From contig ML210277.1 in assembly GCA_004369085.1 (NCBI GenBank), positions 22,803 through 86,802 on the forward strand: 64,000 nt of DNA. The letters are read 5' to 3'. The notes beneath the pieces were generated by a model. The model did not search any database. It had not been told where the DNA came from and saw only the letters and a program-made list of their open reading frames with translations. The translations under genes were made by a program, and so were the position numbers. The first letter of the stretch is position 1. Every line of letters begins with the position of its first letter. This document shows, piece after piece, positions 43,244 through 64,000 of this stretch. This DNA is from Coprinopsis marcescibilis (taxonomy: Eukaryota; Basidiomycota; Agaricomycetes; Agaricales; Psathyrellaceae).

Positions 43244-44060
43244 TTAGAACGGAAGCTTGGGCATCTTCTTCATAGCCCTGGGTGGTTTGAGAGGGTTGGG
43301 GCGCCTCTTCTTGTAGAACTATAACGGCAAACTGTCAGTAGGGAATAAAAAGCAAGTTGCAAGAACAACGCACGGCTTTGTATTTGGCAATTCTGTCCGA
43401 CATGTGAACCATAAGCTTGGCGGTCCTCTCCTCCCTCTTGACCTTGGCCCTCTCCCAAGCGTGTCCCTTGAACATACGCTTCTTGCCAGCATACAACTTG
43501 ATACCAATATCCGCACCAGCCTTTTGCTTCAAATCAACCGCGCCCTCCCAAAGCATACGTTGTGCCTTGGGATCATTCGCAGAAGGATATGATGTCCAGC
43601 TCCTGGGGGCTTTGACCTCCGGAATTACGGGTTGCCGGCGTCGCGTTTCTGCAGTAGCCTGCTCCTCAAATGCCTGAGACGCGAGTTGAGCGTAATTGGG
43701 GTTGAACCTCTTCACCCGTGGGTTGGTCGGGTCCAAGAGGGGAGTTTTCGGGCCCGGTGGTAAGTGGTGAAGCAAACCCGCTGCCTTCGCTTTCTTCACC
43801 AGTTCCGCCTGTCGTCGCAAAGAGTATCTGGGGTCGCCCCAACGTTTCGTTTTCTCGTTGAAACGTGGAATGAAAGGGTTGAAAACCCGGAGACCCTTGG
43901 TAGGTTCTACGTTTTGGCCAGCCGAACTCGATTCTGCCGTTGTCGCAGTGCTTGCTGGCAGTGGACCATTGCGCCTGATTTGTTGAGCGGCGTGTCGAGA
44001 TTCCCGGCTTAGGAATTTGAAGACGTCCTTCTTGGCAGCATTAGAGATAGCGGTGGTCAT
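43244..44060 (-). CDS. Mitochondrial large-subunit ribosomal protein mL59 (MRPL25-like)
   Basis: Fungal mitoribosome protein. It starts MTTAISNAAKKDVFKFLS; an in-frame ATG 30 nt upstream is possible but less likely. Family features are VFNPFIPRFNEKTKRWGDP, YSLRRQAELVKKAKAAG, LLHHLPPGPKTPLL and a basic region KLYAGKKRMFKGHAWERAK. A single intron follows IAKYKA. The last exon reads FYKKRRPNPLKPPRAMKKM and ends KLPF, a characteristic tail. The N terminus is basic and amphipathic, as expected for mitochondrial import. Length (about 250 residues) is longer than the yeast protein but usual for basidiomycetes. Confidence 0.85.
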
Positions 44061-46573
44061 GCTGGCCACGACCGGACGAGTACAGCTCACAACCTCGCGT
44101 TACGCGCCGACGCTCAAATTCCTTTGTTTGCATAAGACGCCGTTGGCAATCATGCGCCGGCCGGGCCGAATTTGCGATTAAATTTAAATAGTCAAGAGGC
44201 GCGGGGGTGCATTGGCAGAACTTGTTTCTGCGATATCGTGTTCTCTTGAATCCTGAAACCTGTGGTATACACCTAAAACGAAACATTTCCCAGCAATACA
44301 CCAACTGTTACCTCATGGCCATCTCGACGAATCATCCCTGTATGTCATCCTCACTGCTCGTCTGACCTTTTAGTGTCTACACTTTGCCATTTGCTAAGTA
44401 GGTTCAGAACCCGCATCCGTGCTGGTCAATTGGCATCGGTTAACTTGTTTTGAAAAGCCATCCGTCTCGATTCCTCCTCGATCAATCAAGGGATGCCTGT
44501 CCCAACTCAAGTAGCTTCGCTTGCGACGAGCCAAGTTAATCCGCATTCGAGGTCTTATAGTATCTGCACTTTATGGTACCGAATAACCCCTGGGATTCAA
44601 TGTGAATCCTTGGCAAGAAAGGACATACTGTGCTCCCCTTGTTTATCACGCAAGCCCGTCAATCTCTCGCGACTTTGCCGGCCCAATAAAATACCACAGG
44701 TAAACGTATCAATCATGTTCTTCAGTAACCAAGGCACACATTGACGGGACACCAAACTGCTGGATTCACGCACGTTATAAACCGCGAGCTCTGTTGCTGA
44801 TTTCCACCTTAAACATGCATTTGCCAAATACCAACTGCATGTTTGTGGGGCCGGCGCCCAGGGTAAGTTTGTGGACATCGAGTACCAATACATTGCCGAG
44901 TCTGGGTCCTGTGGTCAGATGTCGCACACCTAGCCTGAGGCTCTGCGTGGGTGTACGGTATAGGTCTGTATAGACCCTTAGAGACCCTGGTTAATCTGAG
45001 CATGGTCCATGGCCTGTCATTGAAAGTGAGTGCCCACCTCGACCGTGAAGATGCAACGTTAACTACACAGCTTGGGCAACGCCTTCTTCTAGCTATCGTC
45101 CACTCAACAAGGCCGATGTGGGGATCTGTATGCTCGCCATCCATCGTTCCTGGAATTTAGCATTCTCCATGCCCACTTCTATAATTATGCCAGCTCTCGA
45201 TTCCATCTTTTCTCAGCGTCAAGCCCCATCAGTGTTTCGATTATGCGAATATAGTACAACGCCACTGGCGATGACAGAAGCACAAAGTGCTGTAGGTATA
45301 TCAAGCTGGCTGCTTGTAGGCTGCATTCTATTGTTCGATGCCTCCGATGTGGGTACACTTTCCGATGTGTAGACTCGTTATGGAAGTAACCCACTGTCCA
45401 CTGATTGTTTGTAGCAACTGCAGCCTGCAACCTGCTGGCAATTATAACACTGCTGGGACGGGTATATATCTCGCGCTGAAAAATTCACGCAATATCCTTG
45501 ACTATATTTTTTCAAAGATATTGTGCAGTACAGAATGTTTGAACAATAGGTAACATATAGTTATGGATTTTGAGTGGATATGGCAGGTTGTCATAGAATC
45601 TGATCGCATCTGTACTTGCTCGTCTCCCTTATTGTGTAGGGAGACAACAGAGGCATTGTTAGAGTCCAATTTTGTTGAGCATTGCAATATGGTTGGCAAA
45701 CCATAAACTAAATGTTACATATTGTACGAATCATTTTGCAGCTTACTATATGTTCCCGCTGATATGATACATTTAGTTTTAGATTTAGCGGTCATTTTGC
45801 GACGCGAAGTATTTTCCCGTCCCAGCAGTATAATTACCAGCAAGGTCTCCAGACGTCCATGAGCGATGAGTGTTGAGCGACGCCGTGGGTGTACTGCTTT
45901 TTCCAAGCTTTTTCAAGATATGTTGTGCAGCGGCGATCGCCCGAGTTAAGCGCGGGAGCCTAAACAAGCAGTGTCCTCCCACGATGACTGCCGGCCGCCG
46001 GACTCGGGGACCAGCTGGCAATCGATGACTCTCGCGAACGCGAACAGCCTGAGCGTCTCTTCTTTCAACAGCTTTTACCGACGTTGCGCCTCAGCAGTGT
46101 ACACTTCCGAAAAACCGCTCGTGAAATGCAGTGCTCTGACTGACATTAATGGAACCTTTGTTGTCTTTGCTCCTTTGCCAACGGCTACTCTTGTTCTCGT
46201 CCCACCACCAGGACACAAGGTCTCTTGTATGCGCTAAACGACGAGGAGAATTCATTCGGAGATCTGCGATCTCTGGCATGGGGTAGGCAGACAAGCAGCA
46301 TGACCATACGCGTAATTTATAGACCAACAGGTTGCAGTCACCTCAGGCAGCACCGCCATGGGGTACGTACTCGGGATAATGCAACCACAGCGCATGTTCA
46401 GCTGTAGACGTATGTACACTGGCAACGTAAGACAGCAGGTTGGGCTCCTGACAAGGGTATCAGACCCGACCTACACGCACACAACACGTTGAAAGGATAT
46501 AAAAAGCCCACGAATTTTGACACCGCTCTTCTCCCTATTTCTGCCCACCCACCTCGTCTTACTGCAACCGAGG
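44061..46573. other. Gene-free 2.5 kb, promoter of F-box gene at right end
   Basis: No frame here shows a domain. Frames at 44597-45144 minus and 45970-46240 plus are short and unsupported. A clear TATA (tataaaaag, 46498-46506) sits 68 bp before the F-box gene ATG. Confidence 0.45.
46498..46506 (+). promoter_or_regulatory. TATA box of the F-box gene
   Basis: tataaaaag, 68 bp upstream of ATG 46574. No ATG occurs between them. Confidence 0.6.
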
Positions 46574-49720: not shown

Positions 49721-51679
49721 ATGTTTCGCTTTCCACTTACAGGATTCTTGATTAACACCCTACTACTCTGCGTACTTGGTATACCAAGGATATTTCGCGA
49801 AGGAAAATGGCTCTATGAAGAGGATCGAGGACGTGATCATCGGTTCTACATCAAGGGAATTGCATACCAACGACAAGGTCAGTACATCCGCTGTGTTGAG
49901 GTCACTCTTACTGACAGCGGTAAAGCAAGCCCAAATGTTGCATTTAACGAGGCTCAGATCTTCCACGACCCATTGGCAGATCCAGACGCATGTAGACGGG
50001 ATCTACCTCATTTCTCAAGTGCTTCTATCAACACACTTCGCGTTTACCATATCAACTCGTCTCTCAACCACGACGAATGCATGGAGATGTTTTCTGAGGC
50101 AAACATATACGTAATGTAAGTGTCTAGTTTAACTTCAAGGATTTACTTTATACTAATGAAAGTTATTCCCAGTCTCGATTTGAGTATCCCCCGTACCGGA
50201 TCCATCGTTGATGGCACAACTCCTTGGTCCACCAGCATTATGGATATGTACTTCTCGACCATTGATGCATTTGAGAAATACGACAACATTCTCGCTTATA
50301 ATGTCGGGGACTCTACCGTCGATTACAAGAACTATACAACCTTTGAAGCGGTACCATATTTGAAGGCGGCAGTCTGGGATATCAAAACTCATCTGTGAGT
50401 TAAAGAGTGCTCATCCTATGTCACTGCTAATGTGTTTCTGGGCTACCTAGGAGAGCAATCAATTCCACAAAGCTTGTGGGGTACGCTGCAAAAGCAATAA
50501 ATTTCACCAACTTTCGCGTGCCGGGGGTTTATGAATTTCTAACGCATACTGCTCCTGATCGGCAGAGGGATTTGGCCGACTATCTTTCCTGCGGTGATGA
50601 GCCAAATGCCATCGATCTTTACGGTCTAAATGACTAGTGCGATTCTCTGATACTAAACCCCTGGTTATATTATTGCTAACTCTCATTCTTTGTAGTTCAT
50701 GGTGTCCGATGTACGGAAACACAATGACCAAGTCCCGATATGAAGAGATCTTTGCTCAGTTCTCTTCCTACAACAGGCCCATATACTTTAGTGAGTTTGG
50801 GTGCGTTTATGATGGAGACAGAAGATACCCCCGAGTCTGGGACGAGGTAGACGCCTTGTTCACAAACATGACCTTGATCATGTCGGGAGGCATCGCCTTC
50901 AGCTACTTCCCTACTCTCGTTGATCAGCTGGAGTATGGAATGGTCAACGTCACCGAGGATGGCACGGCGATCAACGTAAGCGCGGAGTTTCTAGCGCTTG
51001 GAGAGCGCTACTCAGCGAACAATGGGCCAGATACGCCAAGTCCAAGTAATATCGGAAGTGACGACCCAGTACAATGCAATGCGACGTCTGGGCTGTATGT
51101 CAACTCCGACCTCGAGACACTACCCGACACACCTAATGCAGAACATTGCGACTGCTTGCAAAATGCGCTGAGCTGCCAAGTCAGCCCTGCAGTTGCCGAA
51201 GAAATAGAAACTGTTGCTCCATTAATCACAACCGTCTGCCGGCAGCTTTTAGGCAGCGGCGGTGACTGCTCGAGCATATTTGGGAACAGAACTAGTGGGG
51301 AATATGGACGCGTGGTTGGGTGCTCGCCAGGTACGTCAGATTCGTTCGTGCCTCATACTTTTGTCATACTGATGCGGATCCCATTTCATTTTTAGGAACC
51401 AGACTTTCGTATGCTATGAGCCAGCTGTACGAGCTGCGGGAAAAGGATCCCACCTTCTGCGACTTTGAAGGGAACGCCGGAGTTAATATTGGTGCCCTTT
51501 CAGCTGGCACGGCCGAAGAATCGTTGCGCTCGTGTTTTGGTTTGCAAGGATTATCGAATAGCAGTGCCGGGCCTCCTGGACCCGTCGATGAAACTAGCGA
51601 TACAAGTTTCAACGTCCTTCTGACCTGGCCTAGCAAGTTATCCCTTCTGGGCGGACTAATTGTTATGGGCGGCTTATAG
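49721..51679 (+). CDS. GH72-family protein copy E, acid/base Glu missing
   Basis: Six exons (157, 190, 222, 186, 635 and 284 nt) sum to 1674 nt, an uninterrupted 557-residue protein. The order is signal peptide, GH72 barrel, X8/CBM43 and a hydrophobic C-terminal (GPI-type) signal ending LIVMGGL. FYIKGIAYQ, SSLNHDEC and the nucleophile Glu (IYFSEFGC) are kept. The acid/base motif that reads NVGNEV in copies A and C is NVGDSTVD: Asn-Glu is replaced by Asp-Ser at 50309-50314. Trp of VWSGG is Met (LIMSGGIAFSYFP). A longer exon 4 inserts residues around NFRVPGVYEFLTHTAPD. Transglycosylation is therefore unlikely. A glucan-binding or structural role is possible, supported by the intact frame and X8 cysteines. 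It is a dispersed paralogue, on the opposite strand to the array. Confidence 0.9.
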
Positions 51680-60905: not shown

Positions 60906-61959
60906 AGCTAAGGCCTTGTTTCCGGGTTTTGTCATGTACATCATCATGCGCTTTTGATATTTTGTAATCTTCTGGTAACCTTTTCCGCAGCTGAATACAT
61001 ATGTTGTTGGCGCTATAGTGACAGGCCTGGTCCTGTCCGCAGTTATATCTGAGTGAACGTCCTCGAGGGTGTGTTTCCTACGCTTTCGAATGGAGGTACA
61101 GCCAGTGGAGCGATCATTTGTAATGTGGGCGCCTATCATAATCTTTATCGTTGTCTGCTAAAGTGAATGTATGTTGAAAACTGGAACCGTAGATTTCATT
61201 GTTGTTGTAAGCTCCAGGATCGCAAGGTATAAGAGGCGATCTTCCCTGTCGTAGTTGGACTATGCCGACAGGCCGTCTAAGCATGATTTCATCAGTCCTC
61301 TCCCTAAAACAGAGCTTTGATGGCACAACTCTCGATTTATTACGTCTCAGCCCATCAAACACATCTATCGTTCCTTCCTTTCCCTATAGTTGTCTATATG
61401 CTCAGCAGGCGAGCAGTGGGTGTGCCACTCAACCTCTCAAAGCCTCAGGCTTCCCGTATAAATCCTCACCGAAATATCTGGACCTTTGAACAATGACAAC
61501 ACGCTTATTCTTGCACTCGCCCGAATTACATGTGCATTTTTCAGACCTCGCTTTGAGACAGTGGGTACGTACACTGTCGGCGCATGGGCTCTGTACAGGT
61601 CCCACCGATGTCTGTTCCTTCAATTCAGTTTCCGGGATTAAAGACCGGAATATAATTGCTCGGACCTATCGGAGCTAAGAAAGGTACTACGACACAAAAG
61701 GCGTACGCTCCATCCATCTCCGACTTTTGTTCAAATTGTTCAGGAACCGACAAATTTGGTAATAGTCACTCATCTAACTGTCATAACGTCGAAGACTTAC
61801 CCACAACCTATCATATTATTGTTGTTCGGTCTTCAAGACAGTATACCGCTCTGTATAAAGGGTGCTGGACCTTCGGTCGTATTTCCTCAGAGACATCGAC
61901 TCTAAAGCTCTCCAAGTACCTTCTTCTTCCACACTTCTTCCTTCGCCAGAACGGATACT
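60906..61959. other. Spacer between AKR and pheromone-like gene
   Basis: No gene is seen. The right end holds the pheromone promoter. Frames of 60 to 100 codons here lack domains. Confidence 0.45.
61854..61860 (+). promoter_or_regulatory. TATA box of the pheromone-like gene
   Basis: tataaag, 106 bp upstream of ATG 61960, followed by a CT-rich run before the start codon. Spacing matches the neighbouring AKR gene (108 bp). Confidence 0.6.
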
Positions 61960-62133
61960 ATGGATTCTTTCATCGTCCTCCCAACCATCGACGCCCCCAC
62001 CAACGAGGAGACCGGCGGAAGCCGTGGGTCGACCTCCTACTGCGTCATTGCCCAGCGTCCTGTTCTCGACACTCCCATTGATTTTGAGACGGGTGGAAGC
62101 CGCGGAAGTACATCGTACTGCACTATCGCTTAA
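61960..62133 (+). CDS. Mating-pheromone-type lipopeptide precursor, two units
   Basis: 57-codon ORF. It begins MDSFIVLPTIDAP, the MD-S/A/T-F opening common in basidiomycete pheromone precursors. It ends SYCTIA, a CaaX box for farnesylation and carboxymethylation. Residues 17-31 and 43-57 are a direct repeat of 15 residues, ETGGSRGSTSYC then VIA (first) or TIA (second), with 14 of 15 identical. Spacer residues 32-42 (QRPVLDTPIDF) partly mirror residues 6-12 and 40-42 of the other half. Nine of the fifteen codon pairs differ only synonymously and one changes Val to Thr, so the peptide appears to be under constraint. The terminal unit should mature as a lipopeptide sensed by a Ste3-type receptor. 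Whether the internal unit is released is unknown. No receptor gene is in the window. Confidence 0.85.
   Translation: MDSFIVLPTIDAPTNEETGGSRGSTSYCVIAQRPVLDTPIDFETGGSRGSTSYCTIA
62008..62130 (+). repeat. Two 45-bp coding repeats inside the pheromone-like ORF
   Basis: Units at 62008-62052 and 62086-62130 encode nearly the same 15 residues but differ at many third positions, so this is an old duplication kept at the protein level. Confidence 0.85.
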
Positions 62134-64000
62134 CTGCGCAGTCAGCCAAACTTCACATCTTATCATTATTGTCAGTCAGCCCTCTTTCTCTCGGCGAATA
62201 CGATCAAGTCTGACATTCACCTCTCTTCGTAGCGGCATAGCATCATCTACCATCAGCTCAATTTCTGTCATGTCACATTCACGACCGCAACGTATACCAA
62301 CAGCATTTGTACATCAAGCCCATTTTCGTTCACCTAGCTATACAACATTCGACTTCCACACCGTAATACTCCCCATTCAGTACCCATAGTACAGGCCTGG
62401 CATTCTCTGTAGTCTCTCATCACCCATATAACTGTATCCGAGTCACTCTCGTACCGTACTACTTATAAGACTTCACCCAACAGCTGCATACGCTTCTTTT
62501 TCATCTCAATAACTAGTACAAGTGAGGCAGATAAGGGAAGCGGGCTTCTGGTATTTATGAAGAGTATACATGTGCTCCTGTTTAAAGCTTCGAGAGGTTG
62601 TCCGAGTCTACCAGACTTCTGGAACAGGACCAGCATGCTTTATCCATAATGGCAGCAAGTCGGACACATCGGCCACCGCAACTACGTTACTCAGCTTGCT
62701 GCCATCAGAGGTCTGTAATATTGCATGAGTAAACGATGCAGCGTATAAGGCTGGAGTAGTTATTTAAATGGCTTACCCTATCGAAAACTGAAGCAAAGTC
62801 GCAACTCTGCACCGAGCCACCTTTAAACTTGTAACTGACTTGAACCTTCAGAACCAGCTTTTCACCGTTGAGACTGACTACATTCGATGAGAACAAGTTA
62901 GCGATATCATCCTACTGGCAGAAGCTCATACATCACGCACTATTATGAAGGCTGCATGATGGTCATAATATGAGTTAGTCTGCGGTCCCATAACATAGAG
63001 CGGGGGTATGAGGACGGTTGACGAGAACGTCGTGGATGAAATTCACGCGCGAGCACTGGACCTGATGGGATCCGGCACTTGCCGGCTCCCTTCCACACAT
63101 TACCTACGACTAATTATCTACTTAAAGAGCCAGAGGGAGGCCTGCTTATTGTCTATATCCTATCTATGGGCCTGGAAAGGTATAAAGAAGCTATTGAATC
63201 CCGTTTATTTACCTTACTTGTGCGTAAATTCCAGAAATCGCCGAAAAATCAACGAAAAATGCTAATAAACATTTCAGAGTAAACCGCATTACTCGAGTAT
63301 AGGGGTTTTAGCCAGCATTTGACATAGTATGAGAGATTTAAGAGAAGGGTTGCATTATCTAGTGTAAAAAGTAAAGTTTGGAATACCTGAGAGTCTGGGA
63401 TGCACGAAAATGCTTGCCTATTTCACCGCAACTCACTGATCAAATACCACAGTACCCACCTCCAGGTATTTTGCCCACTGTGCTTAACATGCTAGGTGAA
63501 GATAGAGCTCTAGACACGCTATACTGAGAAAAGGCAGCAGACAACGGGATGTATTCATAACTGTTATGACGCAAGGCAAATGATACGCCTTAGTCGTTCG
63601 TTGATAGTTTGCGACAGAGTTAAGATGGTAGTTCGTCGAGGTGAATGAGTTGGTCGAAAGATTCGAGACGAACTAACGTCAAGAGGATTGAGTTTTCCGA
63701 AGTGTTCGAGGAAGACAATCCGTCAATGAGAAGACTAACAAAAGTCTTATTCGTAAACTATCGAGTTACAAAGAGAAACAAGATCAAAACTAATGTACAA
63801 CTACCTATTTAGGTAAGTATTTATATTTAATCCTTATCTCTTATCGATGTTATCGATAAGTTCCATCCGTTATCTACAACTAAAAGAGAAAAACTACTAC
63901 GTCATATCCTCGTGTTCGTTATCTTCCTTAAAAATATCCCCAAGATCCGGATTGACAGTTAGGAGTATCTACCGATTCGTAATCAAACAATCCCATTCTC
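62134..64000. other. Gene-free right end
   Basis: No gene is supported. From about 63600 the sequence becomes AT-rich, with cgaaagattcgagacgaac-like words and tatcgat pairs (63844-63857). It could be the edge of a mobile element, but no terminal repeat or coding domain is visible. Confidence 0.35.

Follow-up and report, generated by a model that had tools for sequence, protein, structure and literature searches.

Close to the end of a contig of Coprinopsis marcescibilis (Agaricales, Psathyrellaceae) lies a short open reading frame (ORF) with two copies of a pheromone-like unit, each closed by its own CaaX box, of which one sits in the middle of the protein. The question raised by this gene is what it produces, and in particular whether a unit with an internal box can contribute to the product. 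The stretch analysed (the window) is 64,000 nucleotides long and covers bases 22803-86802 of contig ML210277.1 (C132 in our numbering; 86,802 bases), so that window position 64000 is also the contig end. Comparison of the gene with its copies in the 36.3 Mb, 448-contig genome and with proteins of other Agaricomycetes suggests that its product, with two cassettes, is the precursor of a farnesylated pheromone-like peptide belonging to the non-mating-type class known from Agaricomycetes, a reading to which we give a probability of roughly 0.6.

The window gene and its copies in the genome

Translation gives MDSFIVLPTIDAPTNEETGGSRGSTSYCVIAQRPVLDTPIDFETGGSRGSTSYCTIA followed by TAA and reproduces the 57 codons, the MDSF start, the internal CVIA (residues 28-31) and the terminal CTIA (residues 54-57) described in the initial annotation. 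The chain can be laid out as MDSFI followed by two stretches of 26 residues. Both cassettes are built alike, with a pro segment of their own, then Glu and a Gly-rich core that ends in Tyr-Cys, and a CaaX box as the close; the units are ETGGSRGSTSYC-VIA in the interior and ETGGSRGSTSYC-TIA at the end. The repeated 15-residue unit proposed previously is borne out in the cores, which are identical at 12/12 positions, but the likeness is confined to the unit, since the stretches that precede the cores share only 3/11 positions. The Pfam model PF08015 'Pheromone' (fungal mating-type pheromone) matches the protein in two stretches with 32.9 bits (cut-off 22). A protein search of the genome with the window precursor returned 19 matches at E <=10, and there are 14 intact two-unit ORFs of 56-57 codons, located on C132 (1), C176 (2), C56 (6), C47 (3), C216 (1) and C141 (1). 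Given the Pfam score, the 14 intact copies and cores that are alike at a synonymous difference (pS) of 0.66, the ORF is more than a chance frame.

For a splice model deleting one of the units, which had been raised for this gene, no canonical in-frame intron was found in the window copy (-10 to +200, GTNNG-type donors). The splice signals present are donors at +64 and +181 and acceptors ending at +96, +182 and +186; both candidate introns of 35-150 bases (118 and 122) shift the frame and extend beyond the stop, and the 32-base span from +64 to +96 is frame-shifting too. Upstream, a TATAWA motif lies within 160 bases of the ATG in 11/14 copies; four control intervals have it in 0, 1, 1 and 2 of 14, and shuffled sequences in 634/7000.

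In the copies of this genome the internal unit is as constrained as the terminal unit. Pooled over 91 copy pairs, which are not independent and of which many are near synonymous saturation, the ratio of nonsynonymous to synonymous differences (pN/pS) is 0.35 for core 1, 0.26 for the internal aaX, 0.39 for core 2 and 0.31 for the terminal aaX. The corresponding rate ratio (dN/dS) of the window copy is 0.06-0.09 against C176a, C176b, C56f, C56a and C216 and 0.12-0.33 against seven other copies, and is not computable against C56c, where dS is saturated. The two 12-codon cores of the window gene, at their pS of 0.66, have zero amino-acid differences; pN between them reads 0.10, because the method follows a Ser codon switch (TCG/AGT) step by step. 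In 74 of the 87 alignable pairs (of 91), in-register blastn homology stays within about -12..+180 of the ATG, and in 13 it reaches further. Identical cores despite many synonymous differences, low pN/pS and homology largely confined to the ORF argue for a real gene in which the internal unit matters. The suggestion that the internal copy might be a remnant thus appears unlikely, since its constraint equals that of the terminal copy and, across many proteins, its core tracks the terminal one (see below).

The cores of the copies occur as GGSRGSTSYC (window), GGGSGGTQYC and GGGSGSTSYC. The TQYC copies form arrays at G000:C47:5464-8916 and G000:C56:65156-67010 with a spacing of about 1.6-1.7 kb, and the longest matches between the two arrays are about 78-86% identical and extend well past the ORFs, like segmental copies. 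The copy at G000:C141:48189-48359 (L021) has dissimilar units, ETGGSRGSTSYC as unit 1 and ENRAKGAVSYC as unit 2, the latter resembling ENRARGAVSYC of a single-unit precursor on C122 (L062); this gene looks as though cassettes could be mixed. Single-unit precursors are found on C16, C37, C86, C31, C71 and C122 (twice). The one on C16 carries the identical unit ETGGSRGSTSYCTIA, and C31:108051 is another short CaaX precursor. A further match, C31:40723 (E 0.055, inside a 577-aa frame), is probably due to chance.

The receptors and the modifying enzymes were located in the same genome, which contains ICMT and one Rce1-like match. STE3 was matched at exon level 18 times, on contigs C24, C40 and C210 only, and there are zero two-unit genes on those contigs. 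A pattern scan of five stretches of 6-10 kb around the STE3 genes recovered three CaaX precursors with a single unit, on C210 and C24, all three with an ER dipeptide before the core. The dipeptide is also present in C31:108051 and in the C71 precursor, on contigs with no STE3 match.

Two-unit relatives across Agaricomycetes

A profile built from 12 of the 14 own copies (A2) retrieved 59 proteins at E <=1, only the 7987 candidates with the most shared words being scored, and a second profile built from 23 two-unit proteins (A3) retrieved 186, of which the best 120 were followed. With the window protein alone as query, the database search yielded three proteins, all of C. marcescibilis. The window copy itself was absent from the protein-database matches listed by the single-sequence and profile searches. 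The set analysed comprised 130 proteins, the window protein and 129 relatives. With a box defined as [YF]C, two boxes occur in 115/130 and one in 15/130 among the matches listed; both profiles favour two-unit proteins, so that a proportion of two-unit to single-unit proteins cannot be drawn from them. Conservation of the two-unit form, which the initial annotation had proposed to check, is upheld by these homologues with a CaaX end in other species. The form occurs in at least 16 named species of Agaricales, Jaapiales and Amylocorticiales: C. marcescibilis, Coprinellus micaceus, Candolleomyces efflorescens, Hebeloma cylindrosporum, Hypholoma sublateritium, Pholiota molesta, P. conissans, Collybia nuda, Tricholoma matsutake, Termitomyces sp., Lyophyllum shimeji, Tricholomella constricta, Sphagnurus paluster, Dendrothele bispora, Jaapia argillacea (Jaapiales) and Plicaturopsis crispa (Amylocorticiales). 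The taxonomic lineage was looked up for 5 of the 16, and the others are placed in Agaricales. Four C. cinerea proteins were recovered (P0044, P0050, P0052 and P0056), with one unit each, and C. cinerea may still possess a two-unit form. A search of solved structures with P0001 gave zero matches.

The layout of the 115 two-unit proteins is regular. The spacing of the two Cys is 23-27 residues in 112/115, the predicted chain closes with the second box in 109/115, and the terminal X is Ala in 113/115. The internal box has features of its own: CVVF is the internal box in 36/115 and the terminal box in 0/115, and Gln, His, Lys or Arg follows the internal box directly in 82 proteins, while in 29 a single Ala or Ser intervenes after CVVF, which makes 111/115 in total. 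The 10-residue cores of one chain, in contrast to the boxes, resemble each other closely. In the 111 proteins from other genomes, 8.95 positions agree within a chain (61 pairs being identical) against 5.49 when units are re-paired; in a subset of 33 proteins under 60% identical, the values are 8.52 (16 identical) and 4.70. Among 20,000 re-pairings none reached the observed sum, in the full set or in the subset. Because the cores agree and the boxes are position-specific, it is the part predicted to become the mature peptide that has been homogenised and the part predicted to be removed that has not. The arrangement CVVFA followed by Lys or Arg is common to proteins of Coprinellus (P0105), Lyophyllum (P0071) and Tricholoma (P0048), which suggests that the two-unit form is older than the split of these lineages.

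Predicted processing and alternative explanations

In the established CaaX route the Cys is farnesylated, aaX is removed and the new end is methylated (PMC10320760). As the substrate of farnesyltransferase is a Cys box at the C-terminus, the internal Cys of the window protein could be farnesylated only once the chain had been cut behind the internal box. We propose that an endoprotease cuts near QR and exposes Cys-Val-Ile-Ala, that each Cys then receives a farnesyl group, loses its aaX and is methylated at the new end, and that a cut near the conserved Glu on the N-terminal side would precede export of the peptides. This Glu is invariant at both units in a 15-row alignment. The dipeptide is EE before unit 1 and FE before unit 2, and the charged maturation dipeptides listed for pheromone precursors are ER/DR/EH/NH/EE/DE (PMC8305134). 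Each gene would yield the lipopeptide (E)TGGSRGSTSYC(farnesyl)-OMe in two copies, which would act through a receptor of the STE3 type in a function distinct from mating-type discrimination. The two related lipopeptides envisaged initially are not what the gene predicts: the cores are identical, and VIA and TIA, in which the units differ, would be cut off. Because both units predict the same peptide, the arrangement would double the output rather than provide two signals. For the relatives with CVVFA, prenylation of a motif of five residues can be envisaged; activity of farnesyltransferase on extended sequences is mentioned in PMC10320760.

The computed [M+H]+ values of the farnesyl methyl esters are 1422.693 for ETGGSRGSTSYC, 1293.651 for TGGSRGSTSYC, 1551.736 for EETGGSRGSTSYC and 1569.762 for FETGGSRGSTSYC. 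An unlipidated internal piece ETGGSRGSTSYCVIAQR would have an [M+H]+ of 1771.839, and the two-core form left uncut (E17-C54) one of 4173.027.

Several observations weigh against two cassettes that are both released and lipidated. The junction in the window protein reads QRP, and a proline behind the Arg is unfavourable for the usual trypsin-like proteases. Unit 2 has Phe-Glu rather than a charged pair before its core. The rule of Q/H/K/R at the junction was framed after the sequences had been inspected, and it has four exceptions among the 115 proteins (P0038, P0082, P0093 and P0126). Six of the 115 predicted chains extend beyond the second box, and one box is lost or altered in the relatives P0090, P0118, P0128 and P0130, with Ser in place of the internal Cys in P0090 and an altered internal box in P0118. 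Within the genome itself, units have diverged in 2/14 copies (4/12 identical in C141 and 6/12 in C56b), and a degraded relative at G000:C56:23763-23909 (L023) has retained the terminal unit ETGGRNGSISYCVIA with unit 1 no longer recognisable. In the tandem HPP1 of Trichoderma, one or both Kex2-type sites can be lost without abolishing fertility (PMC3068285). Finally, five TQYC copies have a between-unit pS of only 0.20-0.32, and their units 1 and 2 fall into one clade (0.978), which also includes the long-branched unit 2 of C141; gene conversion thus probably contributes to the identity of the units in the TQYC copies.

This last point could be taken further, to the view that identity within the chain is mutational, gene conversion keeping the tandem copies alike, and that the internal copy serves no function of its own. 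Shared codons and the common clade are what such a process would leave in the TQYC copies. In the window gene, C176a, C176b, C56a and C56f, however, the units have a pS of 0.57-0.94 and yet at most one differing residue among 12, and neither the aaX nor the pro segments have been homogenised, which makes this explanation distinctly improbable. A different product, which we regard as unlikely, would result if the internal unit were excised unprenylated or if the uncut chain were one long two-core peptide lipidated only at its end. As translated, the internal Cys is no farnesyltransferase substrate, a C-terminal Cys box being required (PMC10320760), and the authors of the HPP1 study concluded either that the Kex2 sites are non-essential or that the precursor is recognised even when unprocessed (PMC3068285). 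Two equal receptor-binding cores would also account for the identity within the chain. Nevertheless, a bivalent or unlipidated peptide would have no need for the Q/H/K/R that follows the box in 111/115 two-unit proteins, and a CaaX-like tail follows the internal Cys in 115/115, though the definition of the set demands it.

The initial annotation described the gene as a mating-pheromone precursor, and a true pheromone of the mating-type (B/PR) locus that discriminates partners would share the PF08015 family and the MDSF/CaaX layout. Linkage to a receptor at chromosome scale is conceivable, since the contig ends where the window ends. The genome search found no STE3 match on C132, where the gene lies ~1.9 kb from the contig end and only one flank could be read. 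Moreover, the core resembles that of the non-mating-type class, the window precursor has no ER/DR maturation motif, unlike the three STE3-adjacent precursors with their ER before the core, and many near-identical copies per genome are ill-suited to allele-specific recognition. We therefore consider a mating-type function very improbable, and retain the two-cassette precursor of a non-mating-type peptide as the best description of the gene.

A wider interpretation, which is tentative and to which we give somewhat less than even odds, is that Agaricomycetidae possess an old, multi-copy lipopeptide signalling system apart from mating-type recognition, with two near-identical cassettes per precursor. 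A protease would free the internal CaaX (or five-residue CVVFA) box before Gln, His, Lys or Arg, both copies would be farnesylated, and the peptides would be ligands of orphan, non-mating-type STE3 receptors. Two constrained copies of one peptide in one precursor imply that the peptide matters, and the sequence gives masses to seek. The two-unit precursor would also be a natural test of internal CaaX release, and the enzymes that release rhodotorucine A from its precursor are described as unknown (PMC3068285). For annotation, the position-specific internal box and the junction residue provide a motif; of nine two-unit relatives scanned against the PF08015 cut-off, 4 pass and 5 are missed.

The positions of the features are collected in Table 1. 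Elsewhere in the window, a frame at 59380-60165 matches aldo/keto reductase (60.1 bits against a cut-off of 24) and lies near the precursor with no evident link to it, a frame at 43335-44099 (-) encodes the mitochondrial ribosomal protein mL59, and one at 50634-51395 (+) a GH72 glucanosyltransferase.

Table 1. Features of the two-unit precursor gene, in window positions
Feature	Position	Strand	Basis
Two-unit pheromone-like precursor ORF, 57 codons, TAA stop	61960..62133	+	Translation; PF08015; 1 of 14 intact own-genome copies
MDSF N-terminus	61960..61971	+	14/14 intact copies; pooled pN 0, pS 0.57 over these codons
Pro segment upstream of unit 1, VLPTIDAPTNE, residues 6-16	61975..62007	+	3/11 identical to unit 2 counterpart
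Unit 1 core ETGGSRGSTSYC, residues 17-28, predicted peptide copy 1	62008..62043	+	Amino acids identical to unit 2, pS 0.66
aaX of internal CaaX box, VIA, residues 29-31	62044..62052	+	Internal Cys in 14/14 intact copies
QR after internal box, residues 32-33, candidate release site	62053..62058	+	Q/H/K/R in 111/115 two-unit proteins
Pro segment upstream of unit 2, QRPVLDTPIDF, residues 32-42	62053..62085	+	Translation; 3/11 match with unit 1 segment
Unit 2 core ETGGSRGSTSYC, residues 43-54, predicted peptide copy 2	62086..62121	+	Translation; pN/pS comparison
aaX of C-terminal CaaX box, TIA, residues 55-57	62122..62130	+	Translation
TATAAA, 106 bases upstream of ATG	61854..61859	+	TATAWA enrichment over copies

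Comparison with known systems

The closest published counterparts are the non-mating-type pheromone-like genes, whose consensus is given as GGGSGNGAYC in C. cinerea and GGGSGNNAYC in L. bicolor (PMC8305134). The A. bisporus members of this class share with the window family the MDS/AF start, the Gly-rich core ending in Tyr-Cys and the C-terminal CaaX, and they are likewise multi-copy, being several similar genes of which none is linked to ste3.2 (PMC8305134). The four C. cinerea proteins recovered here have the same type of core. Each of the four A. bisporus precursors, however, has one predicted peptide (PMC8305134), whereas the window family has two units and a conserved junction. By its sequence the window core thus resembles the published class, and the gene appears to be a two-unit variant rather than a plain member of it. 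We found no description of a two-unit precursor in Agaricomycetes in the open-licence literature, although supplements and subscription reviews (e.g. Kues 2015) may have one. The available portions of the Agaricomycete mating-gene papers PMC5100862, PMC4101180, PMC5755439, PMC8970355, PMC5473757 and PMC12387193 contain no two-unit precursor, and those of PMC7329392, PMC10569646 and PMC2916851 have nothing on such precursors in this group.

Tandem precursors are established outside it. The parallel with Rhodosporidium drawn in the initial annotation is apt, since the RHA genes (rhodotorucine A) of Rhodosporidium and Sporidiobolus are described as tandem pheromone sequences with CAAX-like spacers (PMC3068285, PMC3236058); the window gene, too, has more than one unit, each with a CaaX-like box. 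RHA genes are mating-type genes of red yeasts, and the likeness that we see is one of mode of action, homology not being claimed. In RHA precursors a Lys follows each internal box. The window family differs in having two units, a Gln/His/Lys/Arg junction and many copies, none of them on a STE3-bearing contig. The cereal rust MFA1 (and Microbotryum as cited in PMC10977897) also has tandem repeats in one short precursor, but in the rusts there are three similar, non-identical repeats and the genes are mating-type genes associated with STE3.2-3 (PMC10977897). Among ascomycetes, the h-type HPP1 of Hypocreales has three repeated motifs, the last of which is the C-terminal CaaX (PMC3068285), and VdPpg2 of Verticillium has five repeats with internal CaaX-like motifs, the last again being the C-terminal CaaX (PMC11077750). 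Tandem precursors are thus known from red yeasts, rusts and ascomycetes.
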